Made by a program: the position numbers and the translations under genes. A DNA stretch of 50,518 nt from NCBI RefSeq assembly GCF_014349155.1, contig NZ_JACSIT010000136.1:1-50518 (forward strand), given 5' to 3'. The notes under the pieces are model-generated. The model was not told where the DNA came from. It saw only the letters and a program-made list of their open reading frames with translations, and made no database searches. This document shows positions 5,829 through 49,760 of this stretch, one piece after another. Each line of letters opens with the position of its first letter. Position 1 is the first letter of the stretch. The DNA is from Neolewinella lacunae (GTDB lineage Bacteria > Bacteroidota > Bacteroidia > Chitinophagales > Saprospiraceae).

Positions 5829-5845
5829 GCACCTGCGACCGCGCC
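5829..5845 (-). repeat. Dispersed 18-bp motif, copy a
   Basis: The plus strand reads GCACCTGCGACCGCGCC, one mismatch from the consensus of the family and lacking the final base. It is preceded by a C-run/G-run hairpin also present before the copy at 40611. Confidence 0.75.
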
Positions 5846-5886
5846 AAAAAAAGATGCGTGGACCAGCCGAAGCCGATCCACGCACC
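5846..5886 (-). terminator. Rho-independent terminator of secDF
   Basis: On the minus strand, TGCGTGGATC pairs with GGTCCACGCA around a GGCTTCGGC loop region, followed by seven T residues. It begins about 34 bases after the secDF stop at 5920. Confidence 0.85.
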
Positions 5887-5919
5887 TTTAATGCTCGCTA
5901 ATTGCTTGGGAGGAAGCGC

Positions 5920-9157: not shown

Positions 9158-9162
9158 GGGTG

Positions 9163-9217: not shown

Positions 9218-9235
9218 GGGCGCGGCCGCAGGTGC
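9218..9235 (+). repeat. Dispersed 18-bp motif, copy b
   Basis: Exact consensus GGGCGCGGCCGCAGGTGC, followed by a C-run as in the composites at 5829 and 40611 (seen there in inverse). Confidence 0.85.
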
Positions 9236-9274
9236 TCCCCCCCGGGATAAAGGAGCAAAGGGGGAAAGGACGCC

Positions 9275-10944: not shown

Positions 10945-11766
10945 ATGTACCGAGCCCTCCTCTCTATCCTCCCCCTCGTCCTATGTGCCGCCTGCTACGA
11001 AGACCGCATCGCCTGCCTTGACCCCGACGCAACGAATTACGACCTGCGGGCCGACGAAGCCTGCCCCGACGATTGCTGTACCTACCCCGCCTTCCGCGTG
11101 GAGATTGCCCGCCTCTGGGGTGAGGCGGCTTTCAGCACTACCGATACCTTTACCGACGGCGCGCTCAATCGTTTTCGCCTCCTGCGGTTCCGCTACTACC
11201 TCGGCGGACTGGAACTGGTGGCGGGCAATTCCCCGCTGGCGGTACCCGAGAACCCCGTGGAAGTCCGCGTCCTTTCCGGCACCGATACCCTCCCTGCGGT
11301 GCTGAACGCCAACCTGGTACTGGCCCAGTCAACGGGGAGCAATGTTTCTACCGTCGGCACCCTGCGCATTGGAAAAGCGGCGCTGACGCAGGTGCGAGGG
11401 AAGTTTGGTCTGAGCAGTGATTTTTTGCCCGTCTTCCCTCCTTCGGCCCCCAGCAACTCCCCGCTGGCCACCCAGGCCGGACTCCTCAATTTCAACGACG
11501 GACGGGGCTACCTCCAGGCCAGCGCTGAATACCTCCTCACCGCTACCAACGATACCCTGCGCGTCGATGCTTATGGGTTGCTGCCCTTTGTCCTTGATTT
11601 TCCCGCTGCGGTGGCCCCCCAGCGGGGGACGGACCTCACCGTGCTGCTGGCCGCCGATTTGTCCAACGTCTTCGGTACCATCAACCTGGCGGCCGATTCC
11701 ACTGCGGTCGTCAATGCCCTCCAGGAGCGCTTGCCGGCCCTGCTGCGGGTCACTGGCGTGCGGTAA
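10945..11766 (+). CDS. MbnP-like (copper-binding family) lipoprotein
   Basis: 273 residues. The N-terminus MYRALLSILPLVLCAAC ends in a lipobox, so Cys17 should be acylated. A Cys-rich segment follows (CLDPDATNYDL...CPDDCCTYP), typical of Bacteroidota secreted proteins. The rest matches the MbnP-like domain, with FRLLRFRYYLGGLELV at about 75-90 and later the NDGRGYLQASAEYLL region. MbnP is the periplasmic partner of MbnH in methanobactin loci, and Bacteroidota homologues are usually lipoproteins near di-haem peroxidases. No such partner is seen here, so copper handling is only suggested. A bidirectional terminator separates it from the convergent CHRD gene. Confidence 0.82.
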   Translation: MYRALLSILPLVLCAACYEDRIACLDPDATNYDLRADEACPDDCCTYPAFRVEIARLWGEAAFSTTDTFTDGALNRFRLLRFRYYLGGLELVAGNSPLAVPENPVEVRVLSGTDTLPAVLNANLVLAQSTGSNVSTVGTLRIGKAALTQVRGKFGLSSDFLPVFPPSAPSNSPLATQAGLLNFNDGRGYLQASAEYLLTATNDTLRVDAYGLLPFVLDFPAAVAPQRGTDLTVLLAADLSNVFGTINLAADSTAVVNALQERLPALLRVTGVR

Positions 11767-11872
11767 AACACCAGGCACATCCTGTCTTCCAAGGGAGTTC
11801 AGCCGGACGAGACGTCCGGAGCCGGCGCACAGCAGACATCTGACGTCGCACATCGGACTTCCAACATCCACT

Positions 11873-11890
11873 GCACCTGCGTCCGCGCCC
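11873..11890 (-). repeat. Dispersed 18-bp motif, copy c
   Basis: The plus strand reads GCACCTGCGTCCGCGCCC, one mismatch from the consensus. It lies in a convergent junction just before the bidirectional terminator. Confidence 0.8.
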
Positions 11891-11911
11891 CCAAACGCTT
11901 CCCCGGACCAT

Positions 11912-11953
11912 AAAAAAACCCGTGCCTCCGGAGGTGGAGACACGGGCCTTTTT
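11912..11953. terminator. Bidirectional rho-independent terminator between convergent genes
   Basis: CCCGTG (11919) pairs with CACGGG (11946) around an inner CCTCCGGAGG palindrome. There are seven A residues on the left and five T residues on the right, so it can end transcription from both the MbnP-like gene and the CHRD gene. Confidence 0.88.
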
Positions 11954-11978
11954 CTGCGCTGCCGAAGCAACGGACGGT

Positions 11979-14900
11979 TTACTGCCGGATGATGCGGCGC
12001 GTGCTGACACCAGACTGGTTGGTCAGGCGGAGCAGGTAGGCACCGGCCGAGAGTTGGTCGGTACTGAGTTCAATGCGGCCATCGCGCAGGTTCAGGGTTT
12101 GCTGGGCCAAAACGCGGCCGTTGATGTCCAACAGCTGCAACTGGGTGCTTTCCGCCCGCAGGCCACCGACCTCCAGCGTGAGGCGGGTAGTGAAGGGGTT
12201 GGGGAAGACCCGGAGCAGGTCGGCAGCTTCCTGGGTACGGGTGCTGACGGAGAGCACGTTAGGCGCACAGGGCGTCGGGGCACCGAGGGCATATTCGCGC
12301 GCGGTCCGGTTGGGAATGAGCTGGATGGAAACGTCGTCGGTGGGGCTGCCCAGTTCGGTATTGAAGTCCCAGAGGCCCTCGGCAACGGCCAGGTTTTCAC
12401 CCGTGCGGTTGCCTTCACCCCAGGCGAGGTAAGAGTAGATCACTACGTTGGGCGCGTTATAGCCGTTGGTGCTCAGGAGGGCCAGTTCGCCAGCGTCCAG
12501 TCCGGCTACGGCGTCGAGCTGCACCGAAATCCGGTCGCCCGGCTTCAGGGTGAGGTCGCCACAGAGGATGTTGAGGTCGCCAATCCGTTGGAAGTCTCCG
12601 TTGCCACCGATGTAGTAATCGCCCAGGAAGGTGGTGCTGTTGCCGAGGTTGATGAACTCTACGGCACCGTCGCGGCCCACTTCATTGACGGCCAGGATGC
12701 CGGGGCGCTCCGCGGCCAGGGTGATGGTCACGGTTTGCGCTTCACCCGCCGTGGCTACGCTGCCATCGCTGGCTTTGAAGCGGTAGCGCAGGGGGATAGA
12801 GACGCCGTTGGGCAGGCCCAGTCCGGAGAGGGTATCGTAGAGGCCCACCAGGGCTTGGGTAAAGCTGGTGTCGGCCCCCACTTTAATGCAGGCCAGGAGG
12901 GTGGTGAATTCCGCGTCTTCCATGCCTACCAGTTCCAGGATGTACACCACGGTGTCTCCGTTGGGGTCGGTAGACCGGGAGATGGAGGCGGTGTCGGCGT
13001 CGGTTCCGCCGGGGAAGACGGTAACGGTGGCACCATCGGCGGGCAGGAGGATTTCCGGGGCAGCGGGGTAAGCGTTGTCATCCCGCAGTACCTGTCCGCG
13101 GATTTCTCCAGCGGGGTTGGTGGTCGTGTGCAGGTTGAAGTACAAGCCGCCGTCGCGCAGGGCGCTCACCTGGGGGGCGGTGAGGGTAAAGCGGTTGCTG
13201 TCTGGGGCATAGCTGCCGCTTTTCAGGTCACTGCTTACCTCTGCGTTCATTTCCACGGCAATCCCCCCGGTGGTGGTTGCGTCGCCCAGGTGGAGGTGGG
13301 AACCACCCGCGATGGAGGCATCAAAATCTCCCTCAAGGTCATCGAAGGCACCCATGGCCACCAGTTGGTTGCCGGAGGCCTCGAAGAGAAGGAATCCGTT
13401 GCCCGTGCTTTTCACGGCGTTGGGGTTGGAGTTGAGGCCGGAGAGATTGGCACCGAAATAGCCCTTGGCAAGGTGCAGGGCCTGGCCGCGTACTTCGCCC
13501 GACATCACGGCTCCGCTGTGGACGTTGACGTAGTATTCCCGGTTGTAGAGGGCGGCTACCTGCGCCGGTGCGAGAGTAAACGTGTTGGAATCGGCGAGCC
13601 AGACGCCACCGCGGCGGTCGGCATCGAGGGCTATTTGGAGGGGGAAGGCAATGGGCCCGGAGGTGCCCGTGCCGCCCAGGTGGATGTGGCTGCCCCCGGC
13701 AATGCTGGTGGCTACCGTATCCATCAGGTTGCGGACACTTCCGCTGACGGTCAGGGTAGAGTCTCCGTCGAAGTACAGCATCACCCGGCCATCGGCGGGG
13801 GTGTTGACGGCGGCGGGTTGCTCCTGGTGGCCACTCAGGTTGGCGTAGAAGCTGCTGACGGTAAGGTCACTGATCTGGCCCCGGAGTTCGCCACTACGCA
13901 CTGCGGCGGAGTGGATGTTGACGTAGTACATCTCATCGTTCAGGGCATCCACTTGCTCGTCCGTCAGGGCAAACACGTTATCGGCGGCGGCAATGGTAGC
14001 GCTCAGGCTATCGGCACTCAGGTTCAGGGTCAGCGGGAAGATGACCGGGCCATTGCGGCCGGCTACCGCACGGTGGATGTGCGCGCCGCCCACGATGTCG
14101 GTAGCTACCGGGCCATTCAAGCCACTGAAGCTGCCGGAAACGGTAAGGGTATTGCCCACCCGTTCGATCATCACACCACCGATGGCTTCGGTAACGACGG
14201 CCGGTACTTCATTGACGCCCAGCAACTGGGTCGTCTTAACCGCTTCCACCGTGGCGGGAAGCAACTGTCCGCGGAGTTCACCGGCGGCGTAGTCCAGCGT
14301 ATGGATGTTGACGTACATTCCCCGGTCCTGGAGGAGGGTCACTTGTTCAGGCGTGAGCTCAAACACGTTGCTGTCGGCCACGAAGGTGCCGCTGCGCAGG
14401 GTGCTGTCGAGTTCACTGTTGAGGCGGAAAACGATGCCACCCGCCTGGCCCGCGAGGCCGGAATGGATGTGGGCACCGCCAGCGACGTTGACGTCAAAGT
14501 CGGAAGAAAGGTCGGAGAAGGAACCGCTCACCGTCAGGGTGTTGCCTTCCAGCGTAGCACTTACCGTGCCGCGTGCGGTGGTCGTTACCGGCGTAGGCAG
14601 TTCATTGAGGCCACTCAGCTGGGCGGTAAAGCCGCCGATGTTGTCGCAGGCATCGCCCGTAAGGCGGGTCACGACGATGGCGTTGGAGAGGTCGAAGCAT
14701 CCGCCCAGGTCGGCCAGGTTGGCACCGACCGTTGCGCCGGTGAAGGTGCTGTCGTGGCTCACAGCGTAGATGCTGCAGGTTCCGCCGCCCGCGCCTTCAA
14801 AGTCGAAGGGTTGGTCCGCCGGGACGGACAGGATCATGCCTTCGCTGTCGGTGATGATATAAGTGAAATTGCTGCCAACGGTATCGGTCAACACTACGGA

Positions 14901-17900
14901 GAGTGAATCGGCAATGCTGTCTCCTGCGCAAATGGTCACGCTGGTGGTGCTATCCGCGAGGGTCAGGGTACCTCCGTCAACGTTGCAGCCGTCGCAATCC
15001 GTTCCCGTCAGGCGGGTGACGACGATGGCATTGGAAAGATCAAAGCAACCGGCGAGGTCTTCCAGGTTTGCGCCCACGGTAGCGCCGATGAAGGTGCTGT
15101 CGTGGCTCACGGCGTAGAGGTTGCAGGCTCCGCCGCCGGCACCTTCGAAGTCGAAGGGTTGGTTGGCAGGTACGGAGAGGATCACGCCTTCGCTGTCGGT
15201 GACGAGATAAGTAAAGTTGGCACCCACGGTGTCGGTCAAGACCACGTTGAAGGAATCAGCGATGCCATCTCCGGCACAGATGGTGAAAGCGGTGGTGCCG
15301 TCTTCCAGCGCCAGGTTGCCGCCGTCGACGTTGCAGCCGGGGCAATCCGTGCCCGTCAGGCGGGTGACGACGATGGCGTTGGAAAGATCGAAGCAACCGT
15401 CGAGGTCGTCCAGATTTTCGCCCACGGTAGCGCCGGTGAAGGTACTGTCGTGGCTCACGGCGTAGATCAGGTAGGTTCCGCCATCGCCGGCATCGAAGTC
15501 GAAGGGCTGATTGGCGGGGACATCGATGATGACGCCGTTGCTGTCGGTGACGATGTAGGTGAAACTGGTCCCGACGGTATCGGTTACCACTACACTGATC
15601 GAATCGGGGATGCCGTCGCCAGCGCAGATGCTAAGGTCCGTGCTGCCGTCTTCCAGCGCCAGGGTGCCGCCATCGACCTCGCAGGGTGCGGTCCCGATGA
15701 TGAGGACGATGGTGCGGGCGGGGCCGGGGGTGGCCACGCTGCCGTCGGAAGCAACGATGCGGTAACGCAGGGGAACTTCGAGGCCTGCCACGCCGCCGTT
15801 GGCAATCAGCGTGTCGTAGATGGCACCGATGGTGGCGGTGGAGGAGGTCCGGGTGCCGACTTTCAGGCAAGCGATGATGCTGTCGAAGGCCATGTCTTCA
15901 GGCTCTGTAACTTCAATGGTGTACACCACCAGGTCGCCGTCGGGGTCGGTGGCTGCTTCAAAGGCGCCTTCTTCGAGGTCGCTGCCGCCTTCAAAGACGG
16001 TCACGCGGGCGCTGTCTTCCGGAACAATGATGTTGGGGGCGGTGGGGAAGGCGTCGTCATCCCGCAGCAACTGTCCGCGGATTTCTCCCGACGGGTGGTC
16101 TACGGTGTGGAGGTTGAAGTAGTAGCCACCGGCAAGGAGCGTGGCCCGCTGTAGCGAATCGATGGCAAAGCGATTGTCGGCTGCCCGGTAGACGCCCGCG
16201 CGCAGGGTGGAATCCACCTCCACGTTGAGTTGGAAAACGATGCCGCCAGTGTTGGCAGCGTCGCCAACGTGGATATGGGAACCTCCGGCAATCTCGGCCG
16301 CAAAATCACTTTCCAATTCCTGGAAGGAACCCGTGGCCACCAATTCGTCGTCGCAAAGCTCGTAGATCACGAAGCCATTGCCCGCCGTCTTTTTGGCTTC
16401 CGGGTTGGCATTGATGCCCGCCAGATTGGAGCCGAAGTAGCCCTTGGCGAGGTTCATGACCTGGCCCCGGACTTCCCCGCTGTTCACCGCCGTAGAGTGT
16501 ACGTTGACGTAGTAGCCGCGGGCGTAGAAGGCGTCTACCTGCTCTGGGGTAAGCGTGAAGGTATTATCCGCTGGCAACCACTGTCCGCTCGTGCCCGCGC
16601 TATCGAGGGAAATGGTCAGGGGGAAGACCACGGGGCCGGATTCGCCGGCCAGACCCAGGTGCAGGTGAGCACCCCCAGCCAGGCTGAGGAGCACGGAGTC
16701 CATCAGGTCATTGACGCTACCGCTGAGGGTCAGGGTACTGTCGCCGTCGAAGTTCAGCATGGCCCGGCCATTGCCGGGGGTGTTGACGGGGACGGGCTGT
16801 TCCTGGTGGCCACTCAGGTTGGCGTAGAAAGTGGCCGTAGCCAGGGGCATAATCTGTCCGCGCAGTTCGCCGGACATGACGGCAGCGGAGTGGATATTCA
16901 CGTAGAGTCGCTCTTCATCCATGGCCGTCACTTGTTCGTCCGTCAGGGTGAAGATGTTATCGGCCGCAGCAATGGTTGCTCCGGTGGAGTCGGCGCTCAG
17001 GTCGAGTGTGAGGGGGAAGATCACCGGGCCGTTGCGGCCAGCAATGCCGAGGTGGATGTGGGCTCCGCCAACGATCTGCGTAGCCACGGGGGCCATCAGT
17101 CCGCTGAAGCTACCGGAAACGGTGATGGTGTTTCCGTCGCGCTCCACCATCGTTGCGCCCTGGGCGGGAGAGTAGATGGAGGGGTTTTCGTTGACACCCA
17201 GCAAGTAGGCGGCGGCGTAGGCATCGGCGTCGGCAGCCAGCAACTGGCCACGGATTTCGCCGGCGGGGTAATCCAGGGTATGGATGTTGATGTAAAAGCC
17301 GCGGTTGCGGAGGGCCTCTACCTGGTCTGCCGTCAGGGTAAAGGTATTGTCTTCGGCCGCGAAGGTGCCCCCACGGAGGTCACCGTCGAGCGTAGTTGTA
17401 AGCGGTAAGGCAATGGGCCCCGCTTCACCGGCCAGGCCGAGGTGGATGTGGGCACCGCCAGCAATGTTGGGGTCGAAGTCGGAGGTGAGCCCGGAAAAGC
17501 TGCCGCTGACCGTAAGCACACTATCGGTAAGCGTTGCCTGCACTGACCCCGTTCCCGTAGAGGTTACCGGGCACGGGACCCCGTTGGTGCCACTGAGCTG
17601 GGCCACGAAATCGTTGATGCAGTCAAAACCTTCCGCCCGGTTGACCGTAATGGGATTGGAGAGGCTGAAGCAGCCGTCGAAATCCATGGGGGTATTGCCT
17701 ACTTCGAGGCCGGTCAGGTCGTCGTCGTAAGAAAGGTGCCAAATCAGGCAGGTGCCCGCTCCGGCGGCGCTGAGGTCGAAGGGACCGTCATCGGTGGGGA
17801 TGGACAGAATCCGCCCGGTATCGTTGGTGATCAGGAAAGTCATTTGGTCGCCGCGCAGGTTGCCCGTCAGGGTCACGTCCACCCGGGCGTCGAGGGTGTC

Positions 17901-18413: not shown

Positions 18414-18983
18414 AAGAATTGGGTTATGAATGAAAATATCAAGCGGCATTCTCCTGCGGCAGATGAGCAGGAAGCTGGCGTACTTTATCGGTAGTGGCGG
18501 GGAGTGGGTGTGGTCATTGTTCGCTTTCGGTGGGCTCGCGCAGCGCCACCGTGCGCGGTGGCCATTGAAAGCTAAAATGGCGGCCTGGGTGAATCCTAAT
18601 CCCCTCCGCAGTGTCAATTGTCCATAGCTACGGGGAAAACCCTTCGAATGGTTTGGGCCCCGTTTGTGTTTAGGTTCAATTTAGGGCAATTGTTCTGTAT
18701 TCGCCACACTTTTCAGTTTGTTTATCAGGAATTTCCTTGATTTCATACCCAACTTCTGTGCAACCTGGCCCGAAAGACACCCCTAAGGCTGCCAACCCGT
18801 GTACGCCTTGATAAGGAAAATGGTTAAACATTTTCTTCTTCAGGGAGTTTTAATACTTTCAAGAGGCATTAGTGTGGTTTTCAAAACTTAATGTTGTCTG
18901 GGGCACTGTCGTTACATAGTTCTTCGGCAAACGGTTTTTCTCCACATCCTTCTGTCGAACTATTCAATCATTAAAAAATACCG
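18414..18983. other. 570-base divergent intergenic region, AT-rich in its right half
   Basis: It separates the divergent CHRD and five-repeat surface protein genes, so it should hold both promoters, though no full -33/-7 pair stands out. A perfect hairpin, GCCACC-GTGCGC-GGTGGC, lies at 18545-18562 in the CHRD leader. The 18700-18983 part is much more AT-rich than its surroundings, as expected of a promoter region. No gene is seen. Confidence 0.6.
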
Positions 18984-21857: not shown

Positions 21858-21877
21858 CGAACCTGGGCAAACGATAA

Positions 21878-21934
21878 AGCGCTTGCCGGGTAAGGGCTCC
21901 GCCACGGAGCCTTCGCCCGGCAGGCGCTTTTTTA
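21878..21934 (+). terminator. Rho-independent terminator after the five-repeat surface protein
   Basis: AAAGCGC and TGCCGGG pair with CCCGGCA and GCGCTTT across an inner GGCTCCGCCACGGAGCC hairpin, followed by a T-rich run. The stem is unusually long. Confidence 0.88.
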
Positions 21935-21958
21935 TTTTACCGCCAAAATTATCCCTCC

Positions 21959-22481: not shown

Positions 22482-22522
22482 CTATCCGGGGCGGACGTTC
22501 CTTGCTCCAATAGGCAAACTTT

Positions 22523-22540
22523 GCACCTGCGGCCGCGCCC
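22523..22540 (-). repeat. Dispersed 18-bp motif, copy d
   Basis: The plus strand reads GCACCTGCGGCCGCGCCC, the exact consensus inverse, 42 bases to the right of the MITE-like element. Confidence 0.85.
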
Positions 22541-23958: not shown

Positions 23959-23976
23959 GGGCGCTGCCGCAGGTGC
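23959..23976 (+). repeat. Dispersed 18-bp motif, copy e
   Basis: GGGCGCTGCCGCAGGTGC, one mismatch from the consensus, in the gap between the two ABC transporter genes. Confidence 0.75.
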
Positions 23977-24023
23977 AGGGCAGGGGATGGGAGGAGCCGG
24001 GGAAGGCCAGGGCCGGGTCTGGA

Positions 24024-28463: not shown

Positions 28464-28510
28464 CGGAATGGGGGTTAGCGAGCGCCAATGTACGGGGCTT
28501 GTTTGGTTTT

Positions 28511-28527
28511 TGCGCGGCCGCAGGTGC
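28511..28527 (+). repeat. Dispersed 18-bp motif, copy f
   Basis: TGCGCGGCCGCAGGTGC, the consensus apart from its first two bases, upstream of the M61 gene and followed by a G-run. Confidence 0.75.
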
Positions 28528-28601
28528 AGGGGGGGGCAGGAGGCAAGGTCAAGACCTTTTACGTCGCAATACCCCCTCGGCGGGAAAGGTTTCGCTTTCT
28601 G

Positions 28602-31255: not shown

Positions 31256-34162
31256 TTACTTCACCTCAAACTCCGCCTTTACACTTTCGTCGCCGACGGT
31301 CAGTTCGGCGGTGTACTTGCCGGGGCGGAGGTAGAATTTGTCGTTTTCGGCTGCTTTGACGGTGATGGGCTTTTGGTCTTCCTTGCGGTTCTTGTTGAGC
31401 TCGGTTTCGAGGGCGCTGGCCTGGGCGAGGTCGAAGCTCAGGTCATAGGGGATGGCGTTGATGCCGGGGATGAGGTCAATTTTTTGGGTGAAAAGCGTGG
31501 TCCCTCCCTTGCTCGTTATCCGCAACGTAGCACCTGCGGCCGCGCCCGGATGATAGACCTGGAAGCTGACACTGGGCTCGATAGTGGTGAAATCGAAACC
31601 TTGGCTGCCGTAGCGCCCGGAATAGCGGAGCCGCGTGGGGGGCAGCAGCGTGAGGGCGGGGCCAGCGCTGGCGGCGGTTTGGAGCAGGGCGACGTTGGCC
31701 TTGTAGAGGCTGCGGCCGTGGGTGCCGACGATGAGGTCTTTGGTAGTGGGCTGGATGACGAGGTCGTGCACGGCCACGGCGGGCAGGCCATTGTGGAGGG
31801 CGGCGAAGGAATTGCCGCCGTCGAGGCTGAAGTAGAGGCCGTGGTCGGTGCCCACGAAGAGCAGGTTGGGCGTCGTGTCGTCTTCGACGATGACGTTGAC
31901 GGCCTCGGCGGGCAGGTCGTTGCCGATCTTGGTCCAGGTCTGGCCCGCGTCTTCGCTGCGGTAGACGTAGCTGCTGAAGTCGTCGTTGCGGTAGCCGTTC
32001 AGCGTGGCGTAGACCACGTTGGTGTAGTGGTGGCTGGCTTCCACGCGGCTCACCCAAAGGTTCTGGGGCAGGCCCGCGTCGATGCGCTGCCAGGAGGCCC
32101 CGGCGTCTTTGCTGCGGTTGATGCGGCCGTCGTCGCTGCCCGTGTAGAGCAGGCCGAATTGCAGCGGACTTTCGTCGATGGTCGTCAGCGTACCGTAGGC
32201 CACGTCGCCTTTTTTGCCGCCCGCCGTGAGGTCGGGGCTGATGATGCTGAAGTCGTCGCCGCGGTTGAAACTGCGGTGCAGGTAGTTGGAGCCGAGGTAG
32301 AAAATGTCGGGTTGGTGCGGACTGATCAGGATGGGGCTTTGCCAGTTCCAGCGGTAGGGGCGCTGGCCGAGCTCGTGTTTGGGGGTGATCGGCTTGGTTG
32401 TGTTTTCCTTGGGGTTGAGGCGGTAATAGTTGCCGAATTGGAAGCCGACGTAGACCGTTTCATTGTCGCGGGGGTCTACCTGCACCTGCATGCCATCGCC
32501 GCCGAAGAGGGCTTTGTAGGGGTATTCGCCTTCCTGCATCCAGCCGGGACTGGCCTCGTAGCTGCCCGGTCCGCGCCAGGTGCCGTTGTCTTGCAGGCCG
32601 CCGTAGACGCGGTAGCCATCGGGGTGGTTATCGACGGCTACGGCGTAGAATTGGCCCAGGGGCGGGTTGTTGCACTTGCGCCAGTTTTTGCCGCCGTCGT
32701 AGCTGATGTTGATGCCGCCGTCGTTGCCGTTGATCAGGTGATCGGGGCGGGCGGGGTTGATCCAGAGGTAGTGGTGGTCGGCGTGGACGTTATCGCCGTT
32801 GATGCCTTTCCAGGTTTTGCCGCCGTCGGTGGATTTCACGATCGGCACGCCCATGGCGTAGACGGTGGAGGGATCGGCGGGATGAACGGCGATGTCGCCA
32901 AAGTAGTAGCCGTAGGTGTAGTAAATGCCATCGAGGTAATCCTCGTGGGTGCGGGTCCAGTTTTTGCCGTCGGAGATACTGTGGTAGAGTTCGAATCCTT
33001 TGACGGGTTTATCGAACAGGAGGCTGTTGGCATCTTCGAGGTATTCGACGAGCTGGGCGGTGGTCACTTCGCCCTTTTCGATTTTGCTGCGCACTGCATC
33101 GGTGGTCAGGCTGCGGGGGAAGCCGTTGCCGCGCAGGAATTCGTCGATCTGGTAAGGTTTGAGGGCCAGGAATCCCTCCTTGGTCATGCTGCGCAGCTGG
33201 TTTTTGGTGAGGGTTTCGTCGGTGGGGTCTACCGGCTTATCGTAGCGGAAGTAGTTGTCGATGCTGGCGTAGAGGTGGCGTTTGTCGCTGCCGTCGTAGC
33301 TGATGGCCAGGCCGATGCGGCCGGCGCCTTCGCCGGTGGGGAAACCGGCTTTTTCGCTGCTGATGCGCGTCCAGGTGATGCCACCGTCCTTGCTGTGGTG
33401 GATGCCGCTGCCGGGGCCGGACTCCTGGAAGTCCCAGGCCCAGCGCTGCCGTTCCCAGGTGGCGGCGAAGAGTTCGTTGGGCTTGCGGGGGTCGCGGATG
33501 AGGTCGACCGCGCCGGTTTTATCGTCTACGAAGAGGGTTTTGGCCCAGGTTTTGCCGCCGTCGGTGGTGCGGAAAACGCCGCGTTCGGGGTTGGTGGTGT
33601 AGAGGTGGCCTAGGGCGGCGACCCAGACGGTGTTGGCGTTTTTGGGATCGACGATGACGCGGCCGATGTGGTGGGTTTCGTCGAGGCCCAGGTGGGTCCA
33701 GCTTTTGCCGCCGTTGCTGCTTTTGTAGAGGCCGTTGCCGGCGTAGCTGCTGCGGCTGGAGTTGACCTCGCCGGTGCCGACGTAGATGGTTTTGCTGGGC
33801 CAGTGCACGTCGATGGCCCCGATGGTCATCACCGCCTGGTCATCGAACAGGGGGTGGAAGGTGATGCCGTTGTCTTTGGTTTCCCAGAGGCCGCCGCTGG
33901 CGTAGCCTACGTAGAAGTGGGTGGGGTCGGCGGGGTCCACGGCCACGTCGGCCACCCGTCCGCTCATGATGCTGGGGCCGATATTGGTGAAGGCCAGGCC
34001 GGCGGCGGGGCTGTTGCTTTGCAGCTGTTGGCGTTGTTGGTAGGCCTGGCTGCGCACCGTGGCGGGCGTCGCGCTTTGGCTGCGGGGGCCGTCCGTTTGG
34101 GCGCTGACGCAGGTGCCGGGCAAGAACAAGGAGCAAAGGAGGAGCAGGGGAAAGAATTTCAT
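31256..34162 (-). CDS. Secreted VPS10/sortilin-type (BNR/Asp-box) beta-propeller protein
   Basis: 968 residues from the ATG at 34162, which gives a good signal peptide (MKFFPLLLLCSLFLPGTCVSAQ); the open frame continues upstream but without protein character. Repeated Asp-box-like signatures (STDGGKTWKGI, SYDGGKNWRKC, SKDAGASWQRI, SEDAGQTWTKI, SLDGGNSFAAL) mark a multi-bladed propeller of the VPS10/sialidase-like type. The C-terminal ~150 residues form a beta domain ending YTAELTVGDESVKAEFEVK, and no T9SS CTD is visible. Such proteins are common in Bacteroidota and often called glycosyl hydrolases without proof. One copy of the 18-bp motif lies in frame (GAAAGA). Confidence 0.9.
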   Translation of the reverse strand: MKFFPLLLLCSLFLPGTCVSAQTDGPRSQSATPATVRSQAYQQRQQLQSNSPAAGLAFTNIGPSIMSGRVADVAVDPADPTHFYVGYASGGLWETKDNGITFHPLFDDQAVMTIGAIDVHWPSKTIYVGTGEVNSSRSSYAGNGLYKSSNGGKSWTHLGLDETHHIGRVIVDPKNANTVWVAALGHLYTTNPERGVFRTTDGGKTWAKTLFVDDKTGAVDLIRDPRKPNELFAATWERQRWAWDFQESGPGSGIHHSKDGGITWTRISSEKAGFPTGEGAGRIGLAISYDGSDKRHLYASIDNYFRYDKPVDPTDETLTKNQLRSMTKEGFLALKPYQIDEFLRGNGFPRSLTTDAVRSKIEKGEVTTAQLVEYLEDANSLLFDKPVKGFELYHSISDGKNWTRTHEDYLDGIYYTYGYYFGDIAVHPADPSTVYAMGVPIVKSTDGGKTWKGINGDNVHADHHYLWINPARPDHLINGNDGGINISYDGGKNWRKCNNPPLGQFYAVAVDNHPDGYRVYGGLQDNGTWRGPGSYEASPGWMQEGEYPYKALFGGDGMQVQVDPRDNETVYVGFQFGNYYRLNPKENTTKPITPKHELGQRPYRWNWQSPILISPHQPDIFYLGSNYLHRSFNRGDDFSIISPDLTAGGKKGDVAYGTLTTIDESPLQFGLLYTGSDDGRINRSKDAGASWQRIDAGLPQNLWVSRVEASHHYTNVVYATLNGYRNDDFSSYVYRSEDAGQTWTKIGNDLPAEAVNVIVEDDTTPNLLFVGTDHGLYFSLDGGNSFAALHNGLPAVAVHDLVIQPTTKDLIVGTHGRSLYKANVALLQTAASAGPALTLLPPTRLRYSGRYGSQGFDFTTIEPSVSFQVYHPGAAAGATLRITSKGGTTLFTQKIDLIPGINAIPYDLSFDLAQASALETELNKNRKEDQKPITVKAAENDKFYLRPGKYTAELTVGDESVKAEFEVK
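31530..31547 (-). repeat. Dispersed 18-bp motif, copy g, inside the VPS10-type gene
   Basis: The exact consensus lies on the gene's sense strand and encodes Gly-Ala-Ala-Ala-Gly-Ala in frame. Confidence 0.85.
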
Positions 34163-40503: not shown

Positions 40504-40521
40504 GGGCGCGGCCGCAGGTGC
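40504..40521 (+). repeat. Dispersed 18-bp motif, copy h
   Basis: Exact consensus GGGCGCGGCCGCAGGTGC, in the divergent region between two universal stress genes. Confidence 0.85.
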
Positions 40522-40610
40522 CACGCAAGTCGTTTAAGCGCAATGAAGGTCCCGGCCCAGACTTCCCTTGCTCCTTGTCATGACTCCCCCCTTTGGGGGG
40601 CCGGGGGGGA

Positions 40611-40628
40611 GCACCTGCGTCCGCGCCC
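40611..40628 (-). repeat. Dispersed 18-bp motif, copy i
   Basis: The plus strand reads GCACCTGCGTCCGCGCCC. It is preceded by ACTCCCCCCTTTGGGGGGCC and a G-run, the same composite as at 5800-5845. It lies 90 bases from copy h in opposite orientation. Confidence 0.8.
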
Positions 40629-42027: not shown

Positions 42028-45000
42028 ATGAAGAAACATTGGCTGTCCCGTTTATTTTTTGCGTCTCTTCTCCTCCTTACCACTAGCGCCTTTGGGCAAA
42101 ATTCTCTGGAGCAAATCATGCGCAGCACGCGCAACTACGCCCAGGTTGTGGCCGAAGGCGAGCGGTACTTCCAAAACAAGTACCCTGGCCTGACGCCCAA
42201 AGACCTCAGCAGTGGGCCCCACCGCGACGGCGAGTACGTCAAATTCATGCGCTGGCAATCCTTCTGGAAGGGCCGCCTCAACCCCGACGGCACCCTCGGC
42301 GACCCCACCGCTTACGGCCGCAAAGCCACTTCCGCCGACGAAAAACTGCTCAACCCCTACGCCAACGTCCCCTGGACGGAAATCAACTACACCGATTACA
42401 TCGGCGTGCAGATTGGGCTGGGGCGGACGACCTGCGTGGCCTTTCATCCTACGGACGTCTTTACCTTCTACGTCGGTGCCGCCATCGGGGGCATTTGGCG
42501 CACGACAGATGGTGGGCGGACTTACGTTCCCCTGGGCGATGAGCTCCCTTTCCTGGCAGTTTCCGCCATCATCGTCGATCAGCAAAACCCCAATACCCTC
42601 TACATTGCCGTGAGCGACCACGTTTGGTACGGCCCCAGCGGCATCGGGGTCTACAAAAGCACCAACGGCGGCACCACCTGGGCTCCCACCAGCCTGGCCT
42701 TCAGTTTTTCCTCCGACGTCCGGATCTACTGGATGGAAGCCGACCCCACCAACCCCCAGCGGATGTTCGTCGCTACCGCCAACGGCGTCTACCGTACCAC
42801 CAACGGCTTCACTACCGTGGCCCAGGTATTGCCCGATAATTGCTTCGACGTGCGCCTCCAACCCGGTAATCCCAACCAGGTCTACGTGGGCACCAACAAC
42901 GGCCGCCTGCTGCGCAGTACCGACGGCGGAAACTCCTTCACCCAGCTGCAAAACTTCGGCGGCGGATCCGTCTTCCTCGCCACCCACCCCCTGGCCCCAG
43001 ACCGCCTCTGGGCCCGCCACGGCCAAACCCTCCACTTATCCTCCGACGGCGGGGTCACCTTTCCCACTACGCAGACCTTCGCCGAAAGCAACGAGGTATT
43101 CACCCTCGCTCCGCTCGACGAAGACATCATCCTCTCCGGCAACTTCGATACCTACCGCAGCAACGACGGCGGAGCCACTTTTTCTGCCATCAGCCACTGG
43201 CTCGGTAACAACGGCCTGCCGCTCATCCACGTCGATCAGCGCAACATGTTCGTCAATCCCCTGGAACCCGACGCCGTCTATTACTGCAACGACGGTGGCC
43301 TCTACCGCTACCTGATCTCCGCCAACCACTTCGTCAACCTTTCCGACGGACTGGCCATCACGCAGTACTACGACATTGCCGTGGCCCAAACCGACGCCAA
43401 TATCGTCGGCGGTGGTTCCCAGGACAACGGCAACGTCTTCCGCCAGAGCAACGGCGACTGGCTCCAGTACGCCGGCACGGGCGACGGCATGAACCAGGAA
43501 ATTGACCCCACCGACGCGGGCATCCGCTACTGGTCTTACCAGTTCGGCAGCATGAACCGCTGGCAAAATGGCTCCAATTCCGGCATCAAACCCGCAGCGG
43601 TGAACTACGACGGCGCCTGGGAAACCCCCTACAAAATCGATCCCGCCAGCCCCAACCGCCTCATCGCGGGCTTCCGCCGGGTGTACGAGTCTTTAAACCG
43701 GGGCAGCTCCTGGAAGGCCATCAGCGGGGAACTGGCCGGCGGCGGCAACCTGGAGGAATTGTCCATCTCCCCCGCCAACCCCGAACGCATCTACGCCGTG
43801 GCGGGCGGCAGCCTCTACGTTAAAAATACCTTCAACGACACCTGGATCACCCGCAACCTGCCCGCTGGCAATATCTCCGACCTCGAAGCCGACCCCACCG
43901 ACATCGACAAAGTCTACATCTCCACCGCCGGCTACACGACGGGCGAAAAAGTATTCGTCTCCACCGACGCCGGGGCCACCTGGACCAACATCAGCGGCAG
44001 CCTCCCCAACGTTTCCACCGGTGCGTTGGAGCTTTACCACGACGTCCCCGGGGCCATTTTCGTCGGCACCGACGTCGGCGTCTTTTACCGCGATCCCAGC
44101 CTTACCGACTGGCTGGCCTACGGCAACCTGCCCAACACCCGCGTGGAAGACATCGAAATCCAGTACGCCGCCCAGTTGATCCGCGTGGGCACCCACGGCC
44201 GGGGCGTGCTCGAGGCGGCCATCAATATCCAGTCCTGCACCCCGTCCTCCCCCGATGGAGACAACGACGGTGTTTGCGACGTGCTCGACTTCTGCCCCAA
44301 CTTTCAGAACAGCCTCATCGGTACGCCCTGCGACGACGGCGACGCCTTCTCCTCCGGCGAGACCTACGACAACAACTGCGGCTGCTCGGGCGGCGTGGCC
44401 AACCTGAGCTACTGCTTCGCCGAAGGCGCCGCCGGCACCGGAGCCGATTACCTCGATTACGTGGGCCTCAATACCATCGACAACGCCTCCGGGCAAACCA
44501 ACTACTCCGATTTCCGCAGCATCAGCACCGACCTGACCATCGGCAACCAGTACACCATCACCGCCGGCCTGGGCTTTTCTTTCGGCATCGATCGCCTCCA
44601 CGCCTGGATCGACTACGACCGCAGCGGCACGTTCGATGCCAGCGAAGCGATTGCTTTTACCGTGCCCAACGCCAACCACCAGGGCACGGGCACCTTCACC
44701 GTGCCCCCCGGCACCGCCGAGGGCGTCACTACGCTGCGGGTGCGCGCCGTCTACTCCGAAACCTTCAACAGCCCCTGCGGCTCCGCCTTCGGCGAAGTAG
44801 AAGATTACACAGTACGCATCGTTTGCGGCAACGGGGCCGGGCAGTGTCTGCTGCCGCTTGATTGGGTCACCTTCAGCGCCCGGCCGCTGGGTAAAGACGC
44901 GGCCAGCCTGCGTTGGTCCACCGCCGCCGAAGCGGGCGTCAGCCATTTTGAAGTCTTTCGCTCCACCGACGGCGACGCATTTTCACCCATCGGTACCTTG

Positions 45001-45405
45001 CCTGCGCAGAACCGCCCGCTGGCCGACTACACGCTGCTCGACACCACCGTCCGCGCGCCCCTGGCTTACTACCGCATCACCGCCGTGGATTACGATGTCA
45101 CCCGCAGCAACAGCCCCATCCGCCGGGTGGATTGGCCAGGCAGCAACGAACGCGCCGCCCGCCTTTTCCCCAATCCGCACCAGAATGGGCCGCTTCAACT
45201 CACCTGGCAACAGCCCAATCCAGCCACCGTCTCCTGGCACGTCTACAACGCCTGGGGGCAGCTCGTTCGCGAGGGCAGTTTGGGCGCGGCCGCAGGTGCC
45301 AACCAGGTTGAACTAGCGGTGGACGACCTCCCCGCCGGCACTTACCTGCTCCGTCTCCGCGCCGCCGACTGGGACTGGACGGAGGCCTTCCTCCGGCAGC
45401 CTTAG
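42028..45405 (+). CDS. Secreted VPS10-type propeller protein with GEVED domain and T9SS sorting domain
   Basis: 1125 residues from the ATG at 42028, chosen for its signal peptide (MKKHWLSRLFFASLLLLTTSAFGQ). Residues about 130-730 hold a VPS10/sortilin-like propeller with repeated Asp-box-like motifs (TTDGGRTYVPL, STNGGTTWAPT, STDGGNSFTQL, SNDGGATFSAI, STDAGATWTNI). A Cys-rich, Asp-rich linker (DNDGVCDVLDFCPNFQNS) precedes a GEVED domain (about 795-935, ending FGEVEDYTVRIVCG). A fibronectin-like segment and a type A T9SS CTD (about 1045-1125) finish the protein. It is likely cell-surface or secreted; the substrate is unknown. It is a relative of the gene at 31256, which lacks the GEVED and CTD parts. 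Confidence 0.92.
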   Translation: MKKHWLSRLFFASLLLLTTSAFGQNSLEQIMRSTRNYAQVVAEGERYFQNKYPGLTPKDLSSGPHRDGEYVKFMRWQSFWKGRLNPDGTLGDPTAYGRKATSADEKLLNPYANVPWTEINYTDYIGVQIGLGRTTCVAFHPTDVFTFYVGAAIGGIWRTTDGGRTYVPLGDELPFLAVSAIIVDQQNPNTLYIAVSDHVWYGPSGIGVYKSTNGGTTWAPTSLAFSFSSDVRIYWMEADPTNPQRMFVATANGVYRTTNGFTTVAQVLPDNCFDVRLQPGNPNQVYVGTNNGRLLRSTDGGNSFTQLQNFGGGSVFLATHPLAPDRLWARHGQTLHLSSDGGVTFPTTQTFAESNEVFTLAPLDEDIILSGNFDTYRSNDGGATFSAISHWLGNNGLPLIHVDQRNMFVNPLEPDAVYYCNDGGLYRYLISANHFVNLSDGLAITQYYDIAVAQTDANIVGGGSQDNGNVFRQSNGDWLQYAGTGDGMNQEIDPTDAGIRYWSYQFGSMNRWQNGSNSGIKPAAVNYDGAWETPYKIDPASPNRLIAGFRRVYESLNRGSSWKAISGELAGGGNLEELSISPANPERIYAVAGGSLYVKNTFNDTWITRNLPAGNISDLEADPTDIDKVYISTAGYTTGEKVFVSTDAGATWTNISGSLPNVSTGALELYHDVPGAIFVGTDVGVFYRDPSLTDWLAYGNLPNTRVEDIEIQYAAQLIRVGTHGRGVLEAAINIQSCTPSSPDGDNDGVCDVLDFCPNFQNSLIGTPCDDGDAFSSGETYDNNCGCSGGVANLSYCFAEGAAGTGADYLDYVGLNTIDNASGQTNYSDFRSISTDLTIGNQYTITAGLGFSFGIDRLHAWIDYDRSGTFDASEAIAFTVPNANHQGTGTFTVPPGTAEGVTTLRVRAVYSETFNSPCGSAFGEVEDYTVRIVCGNGAGQCLLPLDWVTFSARPLGKDAASLRWSTAAEAGVSHFEVFRSTDGDAFSPIGTLPAQNRPLADYTLLDTTVRAPLAYYRITAVDYDVTRSNSPIRRVDWPGSNERAARLFPNPHQNGPLQLTWQQPNPATVSWHVYNAWGQLVREGSLGAAAGANQVELAVDDLPAGTYLLRLRAADWDWTEAFLRQP
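45282..45299 (+). repeat. Dispersed 18-bp motif, copy j, inside the T9SS sorting domain
   Basis: Exact consensus on the sense strand, encoding Gly-Ala-Ala-Ala-Gly-Ala in frame within the CTD (LGAAAGANQVEL). Confidence 0.85.
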
Positions 45406-46800: not shown

Positions 46801-46898
46801 GCAGGCGAGGGAGTTGTTAGTTGACCTCGCTAGCGTCTAGTGTATGGTGTGTTGCCAAAAGGTAGTCACTTTAACCATGTTGTCTTTTCGTTTTTCTC

Positions 46899-47372: not shown

Positions 47373-47508
47373 GTCATTTATATCCGGTAATACGCCTAAC
47401 CTAAGGAACCCAATATCTGCGCTGCTGCCCCTCGCGTGACTTACTGCTGCACGTAACTGCGCTGGCTTTTGCGAAAGATGAAAATTCATAAATGTCACAC
47501 CCATCCCG

Positions 47509-47712
47509 TGCGGCAGCGTGTCGCGTGCGGTAGCGTGTCCCGTGCGGTAGCCATTAGCTACGCTGCTGCCTACGGCGGTCACTCATTCACGCATTCGCTC
47601 AGCGGCAGCGTGTCCCGTGCGGCAGCCATTAGCTACGCTGCTGCCTACGGCGGTCACTCATTCACGCATTCACTCATTTGCTGCGCAGTACTTCGTGCTC
47701 ACTCATTCGCTC
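47509..47712 (+). repeat. Dispersed repeat family D, tandem copies 3 and 4
   Basis: Two units with GCGGCAGCGTGTCCCGTGCGG, CAGCCATTAGCTACGCTGCTG (one has TAGCC) and ACGGCGGTCACTCATTCACG, followed by short CTCATTC-type repeats. Each unit can fold through the GGCAGC/GCTGCC arms around TTAGCTA. They lie between the AT-rich gene and the 3' end of the M56 gene. First segments listed are quoted in part only. Confidence 0.75.
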
Positions 47713-47714
47713 AT

Positions 47715-49760
47715 TCACTTCCTGGTCCGCACCTCCACAATGCCATCGTATCCTTTGAGCTTGCGGGCACGAAGGGTCTTTTGATCTTTGTAGACCTCGA
47801 TCTGGGTGATTTTGTCGGGATCGAGCGCGTTGACTTCTTTTTCGGTGCTGCGCTGACCGTTGATGAAGTAGGCGATTTTTTCTGCGGTAGCGAAGGGGGC
47901 ATCTGGGCTTACCGGGGTGGAAGGGCGGGTGACGGGCAGGGTGGGAGAGACGCTGCCTTTTTTGAGCTGGATGTCTACGATGCCTTCTTTGCCGGCGTAG
48001 CCGCGCAGGGCGAGTTGTTCCGGGTCTTTGATGACGTTGATTTCGGCGATGTCATTAGGGTTTACCGTGTTGGGGCTGGCGACGGCAACGCCATTGACGA
48101 GAAAGACAACGTTTTCGGTGTTGGGGTTGGGGGTGACGATGCGTACGGCGTTGTTGTTGGTGGCTTGTCCCTTCAGTTGGCCGCTGCGGCGGGGCGGGAT
48201 GGTGTCGGTAGGGCCACTATGCAGTACGCCGGGTGCCAGGAGTTTGAACTGGGGGACGGATTGTAGTCCAGACTGGCTGCCGCGCACCCGGGGCGGGGCC
48301 GGTGGCGCGGGGGGCGCGGGCGGTGCCATCACGACGACGCCGACGCGGGGAGCCGGGGCGGGCGGAGGTGTTGGCGCGACGCTCAGGCAGGGGCTGGGAG
48401 GTGCGGGTGGCGCGGGGTAGGGCGCGTTGGGCGCTACGCCGATAGATCCCCAGGTTGCGGAATTGCGGGGCGGGGTGATGCCGTGTTCGGCCTGGTATTT
48501 TTTCAGGGCCCGTTCGTAGAGGGCGCGGCTGCGGGGGTCTTGGGAATCGGGCGGCGTGGGAGCGTCGGCGCAGGGGTTCTGGTCGGGGGCGACGGGTGCC
48601 GGGGCCGGGGCGCTGCTGCTGGCGGGTTCGGGGGCCGGAGTAGCAGCTGGGGCGGGTACGGAATCCAGGGTCGCCAGGGAACTTGCCGGGGGCGGCGTGG
48701 GGGTGTTGATTGGACTTACTTTGCTGTCTTGGCAGTCCACTGCACCTGCGTCAGCGCCCAAATGGAGGACGCTGAAATGGCCGGCACCGAGCAGCAGAAA
48801 AAGGAGGCCGGAGAATAGGATTTTGCCCTCCTGGTGGCGTTGCTCCCCGACAAAAATGCGTTGGATGCGGGCGGAAAAAGGCGTCTTGGTGGCGCTCATA
48901 ACTAAAGAATTTTGGGGATAATGGGAGGCCCGGGCGACGGTGACCAGGGCAGTGGCGTAAGTGCGGCGGTCTTCGCAGCGGGCGGCTACCCAATCGTCGC
49001 AGCGGTGCTCCCGTTCCTGATCGATGAGCTGGCTGAGCGCGTAGGCGGCCGGGTGGTAGAAAAAGAAGGTGCGCAGCACTTGCTGGGGGTAGTTCAGCCA
49101 GTGGTCGAAATGCCGCAGGTGGGCGATCTCGTGCAGCAGGATGGTGCGGGCCATTTCGGGCGTCAGGTCATTGACCAAAGCGACGGGAAAAACGACGATG
49201 GGCGACCAAAACCCCAGCGTCATGACCTCCCCGGCGCGGGTGCTCAGGTGGCAACGGACGCGGCGCGTGAGCGGGTGGCTGGCCAGCTCGGTACCCAGGC
49301 GCTCGGCCCAGGCGCCGGGTAAGTCGCTAAGCCCGGTGCGGCGCAGTGTATCGACCCGTTGCTGGTCGCGGACGAGGTAAAGCGCTGCGGGCAGCAGACC
49401 TAAGAAATAGAGTAGGGAAAGCCAGGGGGCGAAGGTCGGGATTTGGTCCTCGAACCACTCCAACCAGGTGCTGGGCGGCGCGGTGCTGGCCATTAGTAAT
49501 AGGTCGGGCGGCGCTGCGGCCAGGGCGTCGAGGGGTTCGCATACGGGGTTGGGCTCGTAAACGAGGTAGTAGCTCAGGCCAAAACCCACGGCCAGCAGGC
49601 AGAGGGCGAAGTAGGCCACGTTGTGCCGCGCTGCGGGGCTGCCCAGCAGCGGAAAAATGGCCCGTACGGCGGCGTAGAGGAGTCCGCCAATCCAGAGACT
49701 GTGCAAGAGGGCCAGTCCGAAGGCCGTGGCGAGGGGCAGGAGGGTAGGGGGGAGGGCCAT
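47715..49760 (-). CDS. BlaR1-like M56 family metallopeptidase/sensor with plug-like C-terminal repeats
   Basis: 681 residues. The N-terminal part has four hydrophobic segments (about 10-30, 47-67, 112-132 and 305-325, the last after the peptidase). The gluzincin site HEIAH is at 210-214 with a following HFDHW, and a downstream EREHRCDDW that may give the third ligand. The periplasmic C-terminus has a long Pro/Ala-rich stretch (about 350-500), then two segments like the plug of TonB-dependent receptors (FLVNGVAVASPNTVNPNDIA and FINGQRSTEKEVNALDPDKI). BlaR1-type proteins sense an outside signal and cleave the partner repressor; the BlaI-type gene lies 3 bases upstream. The signal is unknown and no beta-lactamase gene is nearby. 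Confidence 0.92.
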   Translation of the reverse strand: MALPPTLLPLATAFGLALLHSLWIGGLLYAAVRAIFPLLGSPAARHNVAYFALCLLAVGFGLSYYLVYEPNPVCEPLDALAAAPPDLLLMASTAPPSTWLEWFEDQIPTFAPWLSLLYFLGLLPAALYLVRDQQRVDTLRRTGLSDLPGAWAERLGTELASHPLTRRVRCHLSTRAGEVMTLGFWSPIVVFPVALVNDLTPEMARTILLHEIAHLRHFDHWLNYPQQVLRTFFFYHPAAYALSQLIDQEREHRCDDWVAARCEDRRTYATALVTVARASHYPQNSLVMSATKTPFSARIQRIFVGEQRHQEGKILFSGLLFLLLGAGHFSVLHLGADAGAVDCQDSKVSPINTPTPPPASSLATLDSVPAPAATPAPEPASSSAPAPAPVAPDQNPCADAPTPPDSQDPRSRALYERALKKYQAEHGITPPRNSATWGSIGVAPNAPYPAPPAPPSPCLSVAPTPPPAPAPRVGVVVMAPPAPPAPPAPPRVRGSQSGLQSVPQFKLLAPGVLHSGPTDTIPPRRSGQLKGQATNNNAVRIVTPNPNTENVVFLVNGVAVASPNTVNPNDIAEINVIKDPEQLALRGYAGKEGIVDIQLKKGSVSPTLPVTRPSTPVSPDAPFATAEKIAYFINGQRSTEKEVNALDPDKITQIEVYKDQKTLRARKLKGYDGIVEVRTRK
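48742..48759 (-). repeat. Dispersed 18-bp motif, copy k, inside the M56 gene
   Basis: GGGCGCTGACGCAGGTGC on the sense strand, two mismatches from the consensus, encoding Gly-Ala-Asp-Ala-Gly-Ala in the same frame as the other genic copies. Confidence 0.75.

Follow-up and report, generated by a model that had tools for sequence, protein, structure and literature searches.

What kind of element is an 18-bp word that recurs eleven times within 50 kb of bacterial DNA? The question is raised by a contig of Neolewinella lacunae (NZ_JACSIT010000136.1; its 50,518 nucleotides are called the window below, and it is contig C118 of a 5.8-Mb genome in 154 contigs), in which a preliminary description had listed the eleven places and had suggested a chromosome-organising or DNA-uptake-type signal, a protein-binding site or a very small mobile repeat. 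Here we find that the word belongs to a site of about 45 bp, present in about 1,200 copies and written in species dialects, and we consider it somewhat more probably than otherwise a DNA-uptake-type self-recognition signal, with uptake probably by machinery other than that of Neisseria and Haemophilus. A literature search, outside which most subscription journals lay, returned no report of this motif. Uptake signals are described, in the accessible parts of the literature, for Neisseriaceae and Pasteurellaceae, both of which use type IV pili.

Abundance and two-box anatomy

The genome-wide count had been set beforehand as the test of the motif, and it rules out an abundance at chance level: the 16-mer GCGCNGNCGCAGGTGC occurs 1193 times (606 and 587 by strand), compared with 0 for the reversed pattern. 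Very many copies of a non-palindromic word on both strands, far above chance, is a property that the motif shares with the DNA uptake sequences (DUS) of Neisseriaceae and the uptake signal sequences (USS) of Pasteurellaceae. Anatomy and distribution were studied in a sample of 837 kb (14% of the genome) holding 202 copies (about 0.24 per kb), 102 of them on the plus strand. Average base preferences in this sample reveal the 18-mer as half of a two-box site, which runs from an AT-rich, T-leaning stretch through GG and GCGC[G/T]GNCGCAGGTGC to a position that is mostly A, one that is not T, any base, G and a purine-rich tail, where the second box, AGCAAGG, usually lies 14-17 nt on from the core. 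The preliminary description had thus caught the core, while the second box, the dialects and the genome-wide scale had escaped it.

With the second box defined as [AG]AGC[AG][AG][GT]G and distances counted from GTGC, it starts 14-17 nt on in 22 of 60 genic and 40 of 107 hairpin-free intergenic copies, and lies anywhere within 70 nt in 32 and 50 of these respectively, compared with 2.2% at the random places sampled, so that about half of the copies lack the box as defined. A C/G hairpin follows the core in 40 of the 202 copies, and of the sample's 40 C6-loop-G6 hairpins, 36 have a core no more than 60 bp away. When it stands between the boxes the hairpin displaces the second by about 22 nt (among 35 hairpin-bearing intergenic copies the box starts at 36-39 in 20 and is missing from nine), a shift that would be close to two helix turns. 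The extended pattern is much alike in genic and intergenic copies.

Distribution, spacing and orientation

Coding sequence makes up 84% of the sample, yet only 60 of the 202 copies are wholly genic. The first 437 kb contain 30 genic copies (12 sense, 18 antisense), which use five of the six possible readings, giving peptides of the ARPQVQ, GAAAGA, APAAAP, CTCVSA and LHLRPR types. In six of these 30 the motif runs antisense through signal-peptide-like N-terminal codons and encodes the end of that peptide, four of them reading TCVSAQ (window 34099-34116; contigs C16:24545, C19:41322, C19:48163, C22:2558 and C12:13727). Among 140 intergenic copies the core is turned towards the nearest gene and the tail away from it in 102, with the opposite in 38, a preference that we take as putatively reflecting the room needed by the tail. 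All 18 neighbours closer than 200 bp are inverted (14 convergent, four divergent, none tandem), the inverted-pair arrangement known from DUS and USS.

The sites are also evenly spread. With close pairs merged, the spacing of 184 sites has a coefficient of variation of 0.63, against 0.95 (standard deviation 0.07) for random placement with the same genic/intergenic split, a value reached in 0 of 1000 randomisations. In the 4.17-Mb contig of a congener, G013, 25 stretches of 20 kb contain between two and six copies each (mean 4.4, variance 1.25), of which 49 in all are genic and 61 intergenic; the control gives 0. The same stretches do not bear out a strand bias along the replication axis, which the preliminary description had proposed to look for: 58 copies are forward and 52 reverse, and orientation depends neither on GC skew (P 0.85) nor on gene direction (P 1.0). 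This counts, as far as sampled, against a replication-directed signal, and membership of the Chi or KOPS (FtsK-orienting polar sequence) class was rejected on this ground. Uptake sequences are expected to be rare in recently acquired DNA; in this respect local GC content correlates weakly with copy number (rho 0.30, P 0.007, 83 windows), a correlation that composition alone could yield.

Orthologous sites

Comparison of motif-bearing genes with their relatives gave 18 motif-spanning alignments from eight genes, 17 of which are gap-free. Between close species, 30 distinct locus pairs provided ten distinct sites comparable in alignments of at least 76% identity, and none of the ten has a gap at the core, although small ones occur in some flanks. 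Against a relaxed pattern, widened here to admit A at K and T at R, the partner matches fully at five of these sites and has one mismatch at three, two at one and three at one. For in-place gain between genes the sites are few, most intergenic DNA being unalignable at 75-89% identity. Because orthologous sites mostly align without gaps, copies appear to arise mainly by substitution in place, as in DUS and USS, with a 20-residue gap in one alignment and extra residues in some YcsF homologs as exceptions. The suspicion that the copies are artefacts of one larger duplicated element finds no support either in these comparisons or in the base preferences, which fade by about 45 bp.

In larger homolog families, a pairwise recount found a gap no more than three residues from the motif in 30 of 119 Tgt, 10 of 118 YcsF and 11 of 106 thioesterase homologs. 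Ten of the 12 Tgt gaps listed (of 30) are single-residue; the ten in YcsF comprise five of 15 residues, one each of 16, 23 and 3, and two of 1. These families therefore show that compatible residues occur in homologs, not that insertion is absent. The five YcsF homologs with 15 extra residues (P0125, P0143, P0152, P0168 and P0178; 45 nt) carry them, with differing sequence, directly before the LHLR peptide, which in the source genome is encoded by the motif. The closest named relatives of the source genome are Neolewinella (Bacteroidota, Saprospirales), its Tgt being 86% identical to that of N. agarilytica. Textbook Tgt carries a CxCxxC zinc motif; by eye, this is not visible in any of 120 Tgt sequences in the stretch inspected (gene C19:71349-72482).

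The gene pheT allows the DNA word and the peptide to be told apart to some degree. GCG CGG NCG CAG GTG is kept in seven of the nine species compared, the N codon being Pro, Thr or Ala; G015 has TCG CGC GCG CAG GTG, and G004 is without the motif. The Ala, Arg and Val columns of the motif use one codon in seven, eight and eight of the nine species, and 64 of 367 columns overall (the motif's three included) do so in at least seven. Five-codon windows sharing every third base in at least seven of nine species number 11 of 815, three of them at the motif. In the seven motif-keeping species (G015 and G004 dropped) single-codon columns are 19 of 311, against three of three in the motif, a choice of species that is partly circular. 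For a site picked because the source genome has it, these figures modestly suggest conservation of the DNA word rather than of the peptide.

Species dialects

A search for GCGCNGNCGCAGGTGC in 40 genomes found it in 20 of the 21 of the genus, with at least three copies each; outside the genus, where only the GC pattern was tried, G021 has three matches, G037 two and the other 17 genomes none. Among 80 matches listed from a scan of named genomes, 76 are stretches from Neolewinella, Lewinella or one Bacteroidia bin, and we take the remaining four, from Pseudonocardia, Xanthobacteraceae (two) and Pelomonas, as chance. Culturable species among the carriers are Neolewinella persica DSM 23188, N. agarilytica DSM 24740 and N. 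aurantiaca SSH13. The relaxed pattern GGCGSKGNCGCRGGWGC occurs 243-1214 times in 17 of the 21 congeneric genomes and is scarce in G015 (99), G006 (35), G010 (4) and G001 (3), the controls giving 0-11.

Consensuses were taken from 203 copies of the source genome and 10-23 copies in each of seven others (80-160 kb); G012 offered three copies, G001 two and G006 none. They differ from species to species, as the words of DUS and USS do: GGCGCGGcCGCAGGTGC in G000, GGCGCTGCCGCaGGTGC in G013, where T stands at the K position in 91% of sampled copies, GGCGCGGtCGCgGGTGC in G019 (G at R in 58%), GGCGGGGCCGCAGGTGC in G011 (G at S in 94%) and GGCGGGGACGCGGGAGC in G004 (G at R in 79%, A at W in 71%). G005 and G008 each have a mixture of bases at a single position, S.

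Loss of the motif from G001, G006 and G010 was considered and rejected when k-mer searches revealed other words there, each found in the same stretches in which it was then counted. G001 has the shifted word GGCGG[AG]GCGC[AG]GG[TA] (11 copies in 134 kb, reversed control 0) and G006 has GCGCCGG[AG]GCGC[AG]GG at 14 distinct places in about 153 kb, inverted pairs among them (reversed control 0). In G010 the core itself is unrelated: CAAAGTAGC occurs 35 times in about 116 kb against 2.1 expected (18 genic, 17 intergenic; reversed control 2), while it is found nine times in 787 kb of the source genome and eight times in 400 kb of G013. In G010, 45 kb of sequence contain CAAAGTAGCA eight times, and in G001, 120 kb contain GGAGCGCAGG 11 times. 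The G010 logo opens with a T-tract and what is mostly GG; C, a pyrimidine and two variable positions lead into CAAAGTAGC, after which come A or C, a purine, usually T, and finally a G present in 35 of 35 copies. Reading the two logos together, the outer frame (T-tract-GG ... GC-ARNG) appears to resemble that of the source genome, while the core differs.

comEC sites and competence machinery

Within comEC, a pattern allowing A at K detects the motif at two sites. Site A (alignment column 140) carries it in G017, G004, G011, G020, G016 and G012, and site B (column 630) in seven aligned species (G015, G009, G013, G007, G005, G003 and G014). A copy at the corresponding position of the locus occurs in G018 as well, where the reading frame was cut. 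The G013 copy at site B is identical to the sampled G013 consensus; G019 has GCGCGGTCGCGGGTGC, which by eye is its own consensus except for the first base, and G002 holds a relative with three mismatches. In G010, CAAAGTAGC lies one column from site B, with a second copy elsewhere in the gene. The encoded residues vary widely (WAGTQVQ, GARTQVP, SALPQVR, YARSRVP, GWQSSKV), and by the patterns used neither site is found in G000, G001, G006 and G008. Since the stretch is poorly conserved (mean column conservation 0.36 vs 0.51), the motif may have arrived at site B independently in different species. Around comEC (about 79 kb in 21 genomes; loci L325-L344 and L031) there are 19 relaxed-pattern copies, which orthology makes non-independent, against 7.4 expected from genome means. 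The dprA gene of the source genome also carries a copy.

ComEC is present in all 21 genomes and DprA in 20, the miss being a 55% complete genome, a complement that would permit competence. Neisseria DUS are read by a type IV pilus minor pilin, and membership of the pilin-read class was rejected for the present motif, which this trait does not fit. For the pilus ATPase, PF00437, 11 of the 21 genomes narrowly pass the cut-off, but none of the listed matches extends over more than 84 of 370 positions, and the best fall in frames of about 950-1070 residues. Because these matches are partial, we do not file the motif as a DUS but regard it as working alike.

A different route has been described within the same phylum. 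According to the accessible part of the report, transformation in Riemerella anatipestifer needs ComEC, DprA, ComF, RecA and four proteins unlike known machinery (PMC8459023), and Riemerella columbina is reported to prefer its own DNA and to have over-represented k-mers of unproven role (PMC7965970, likewise available in part). Together these reports make a pilus-independent Bacteroidota receptor plausible for Neolewinella, though putative. DUF5689, a domain found in a Riemerella protein that transformation requires (PMC8459023), occurs in one of the 21 genomes, as three repeats in one 708-residue frame (G010:C115:8691-10592; L345-L347), in the species with the unrelated core; this single case is a lead towards a receptor.

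Copies in the window

Within the window itself, 15 matches to the 18-mer with up to three mismatches compare with 0.24 expected, and 0 of 100 shuffles reached 15 (Table 1). All eleven places in the preliminary description hold up, the one given as 28511 starting at 28510: five are exact, three have one mismatch and three have two. The degenerate relative near 4473 is also there, with two mismatches, and the copies at 34099, 2134 and 11378 are additions. A gene map made with a simple codon-usage script agrees that eight of the eleven are intergenic. The C-run/G-run hairpins said to adjoin several copies directly follow those at 5829 and 40611, whereas the copy at 9218 is followed by a C-run alone. 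The longest stretch without an exact 16-mer, 11873-22523 (10.65 kb), contains a pair of long genes, of 2156 and 957 codons, and a small third gene.

Table 1. Motif copies and associated units in the window
Positions	Strand	Feature	Context
2112..2151	-	core 2134-2151, 3 mismatches; second box 2112-2119	antisense in gene 238-2409, codes APATAQ
4473..4490	+	degenerate core GGGCGCGGGCGCGGGTGC, 2 mismatches; second box not found	upstream of called gene 4796-5611
5784..5846	-	intergenic unit: core 5829-5846, 2 mismatches; C/G hairpin 5804-5827; second box 5784-5791	between Por_Secre_tail gene and secDF
9218..9265	+	intergenic unit: exact core 9218-9235, C-run after it	upstream of secDF
11378..11419	+	core with 3 mismatches; second box 11412-11419	within gene 10945-11766, codes ALTQVR
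11843..11890	-	intergenic unit: core 11873-11890, 1 mismatch	
22500..22540	-	intergenic unit: exact core 22523-22540; second box 22500-22507	
23959..24006	+	intergenic unit: core 23959-23976, 1 mismatch	between two ABC transporter genes
28510..28557	+	intergenic unit: core 28510-28527, 2 mismatches	
31507..31547	-	exact core 31530-31547; second box 31507-31514	within gene 31256-34162, codes GAAAGA
34099..34149	+	core 34099-34116, 2 mismatches; box-like GAGCAGGG at 34142-34149	antisense in signal-peptide-like N-terminal codons (GTCVSAQ), gene 31256-34162
40504..40551	+	intergenic unit: exact core 40504-40521	left half of convergent inverted pair
40566..40628	-	intergenic unit: core 40611-40628, 1 mismatch; C/G hairpin 40586-40609; second box 40566-40573	right half of inverted pair with 40504 copy
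45282..45329	+	exact core 45282-45299	within gene 42028-45405, near C-terminus, codes GAAAGA
48712..48759	-	core 48742-48759, 2 mismatches	within gene 47715-49760, codes GADAGA

Discussion

Of the roles suggested in the preliminary description, the uptake signal has emerged as the best supported, by the dialects, the mostly in-place gain, the inverted pairs, the strand symmetry and the permissive genic copies. We favour it because the dialects, inverted pairs, permissive locations, intergenic majority and point substitution match what the accessible parts of the DUS and USS literature print (PMC3630211, PMC2397512, PMC1939737, PMC7811141). Kin would release DNA whose motif a putative cell-surface receptor binds, and this DNA would be imported, possibly through ComEC, and recombined; this recombination of taken-up DNA (molecular drive) would fill the genome with copies, and a change in receptor specificity would alter all copies together by the same drive. 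We infer the receptor, the raised uptake and the drive as the source of the copies from the pattern that they would leave. Drive by biased uptake would explain how hundreds of words in one genome agree and change together, and the regular spacing may arise because a new copy gains most where the incoming fragment holds no other copy. The receptor is proposed to be a non-pilus one because no convincing type IV pilus ATPase was found. A further and more tentative proposal, to which we give a little less than even credence, is that Neolewinella exchanges DNA under a self-recognition code: hundreds of sites in each species would share a word peculiar to it, set in a constant frame of T-tract, GG, variable core, GC and ARNG and read by a pilus-independent Bacteroidota receptor, with wholesale swaps as in G010 and with sites of the comEC type rewritten in place.

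Several observations weigh against an uptake signal and need to be considered together. Strong evenness of spacing is a mark of chromosome compaction in the accessible part of PMC1939737, where its lack is used to argue that USS are not chromosome-organising sites, and our copies are regularly spaced. One of the 18 gene alignments has a 20-residue gap in the relative across the motif, in a low-complexity tail where insertion is possible; local alignments may overlook insertions, and in seven of 118 YcsF homologs the motif is flanked or interrupted by 15-23 additional residues, exactly 15 in five of them. The 21 genomes yielded no convincing type IV pilus ATPase (PF00437), so that the pilus route by which the known uptake signals act seems to be missing, and ComEC, DprA and HHH_3 proteins do not track motif number across species. 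We know of no uptake or competence experiment in Neolewinella.

The evenness also bears on the main rival, which takes up the chromosome-organising or protein-binding role proposed at the outset and which we rate as a distinctly less likely but serious explanation. Here a nucleoid protein would bind the motif every 4-5 kb or so and organise the chromosome, its specificity having drifted between species with the sites following. The very regular spacing in the source genome and in G013, the equal use of both orientations, the intergenic excess and the long two-box site, whose second box moves by about two helical turns when a hairpin intervenes, would all suit such a protein. Uptake drive acting on fragments of a few kb might yield regular spacing too, and the rewriting of hundreds of sites to a new core, as in G010, is hard to picture without a drive that spreads new sites; a nucleoid protein of this kind was neither sought nor found. 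Density and dialects would also suit an intracellular mark of self, by which a system of defence, repair or modification would know the DNA to be spared or repaired; we regard this as improbable given that the copies in G013 lack the strand or replichore bias of Chi. A scan of viral contigs returned 88 stretches with the 16-mer, and among 80 listed, five have two copies and none has more, as a self-mark might lead one to expect; this says little, since the number of Neolewinella phages within the scan is not stated. In those five (L261, L266, L267, L271 and L275) the two 16-mers lie about 3.6 kb apart in the same orientation, and they may form one related group.

The very small mobile repeat of the preliminary description fares worse, and spread by a transposase, as a repetitive extragenic palindrome (REP), its paired form (REPIN) or a miniature inverted-repeat transposable element, seems to us at least as improbable. 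Intergenic excess, inverted close pairs, the shared unit with its hairpin, the single gapped gene alignment and the 45-nt additions of differing sequence in some YcsF homologs are what such an element could leave behind. Insertion is nevertheless not seen at nearly all orthologous sites (17 of 18 and 10 of 10 comparisons), the exceptions being those just named, and genic copies are numerous and use five of six readings in the 30 inspected. REP/REPIN membership was rejected on the manner of spread and on the transposase alike: the two Y1_Tnp loci have no copy with up to two mismatches within about 1.5 kb, although one copy with three mismatches lies at the edge of locus L030. A role in the transcript, as a terminator or structured RNA, is the least credible of the alternatives. 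It could account for the C/G hairpin on some copies and for the several that lie between convergent genes, but copies are found whatever the relative direction of the two neighbouring genes (divergent, convergent or co-directional) and, within genes, in either sense, and an Rfam scan of the window gave no match.

If the motif is indeed an uptake-type signal, then such a system would exist outside Neisseriaceae and Pasteurellaceae with new machinery, and a Bacteroidota case without a detectable pilus ATPase would mean that sequence-marked DNA exchange evolved more than once. Several dialects and one unrelated core within one genus would make the joint change of a receptor and a genome-wide signal directly testable in culturable marine bacteria, and the motif would offer a handle for finding the DNA receptor of Bacteroidota. 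Should the chromosome-organising explanation prove right instead, a regularly spaced, species-specific site this large would also be new.

Comparison with known systems

HIP1 of cyanobacteria is a palindromic octamer of high density that also occurs in genes and whose function is debated. The Neolewinella motif is likewise a dense, short genomic motif with genic copies, but it is comparatively long, non-palindromic, two-boxed and dialect-forming. With REP and REPIN elements it shares the inverted pairs and the intergenic excess; it departs from those served by a RAYT (REP-associated tyrosine transposase) in that nearly all orthologous sites are without insertion, no transposase gene is flanked by it and 60 of 202 copies are genic.

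The closer parallels are with uptake signals, for which we draw on the accessible parts of the sources. Pasteurellaceae USS, with a 9-bp core plus AT-tracts, also combine a core with flanking tracts (PMC7811141), and they too have no orientation bias and are thought to evolve by point substitution in place (PMC1939737). They are unrelated in sequence and denser, with a spacing of about 1 kb (PMC7811141) compared with about 0.24 copies per kb here, and the present motif has several dialects, one with an unrelated core, in a single genus. Neisseriaceae DUS are shorter (10-12 nt) and of unrelated sequence, whereas the present site is a two-box element of about 45 bp, with a putative role in uptake, in Bacteroidota that lack a convincing type IV pilus ATPase. 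The two are nonetheless alike in being present in hundreds to thousands of copies, in forming species dialects and inverted pairs (PMC3630211), and in lying mostly between genes with the rest in permissive gene regions (PMC2397512).

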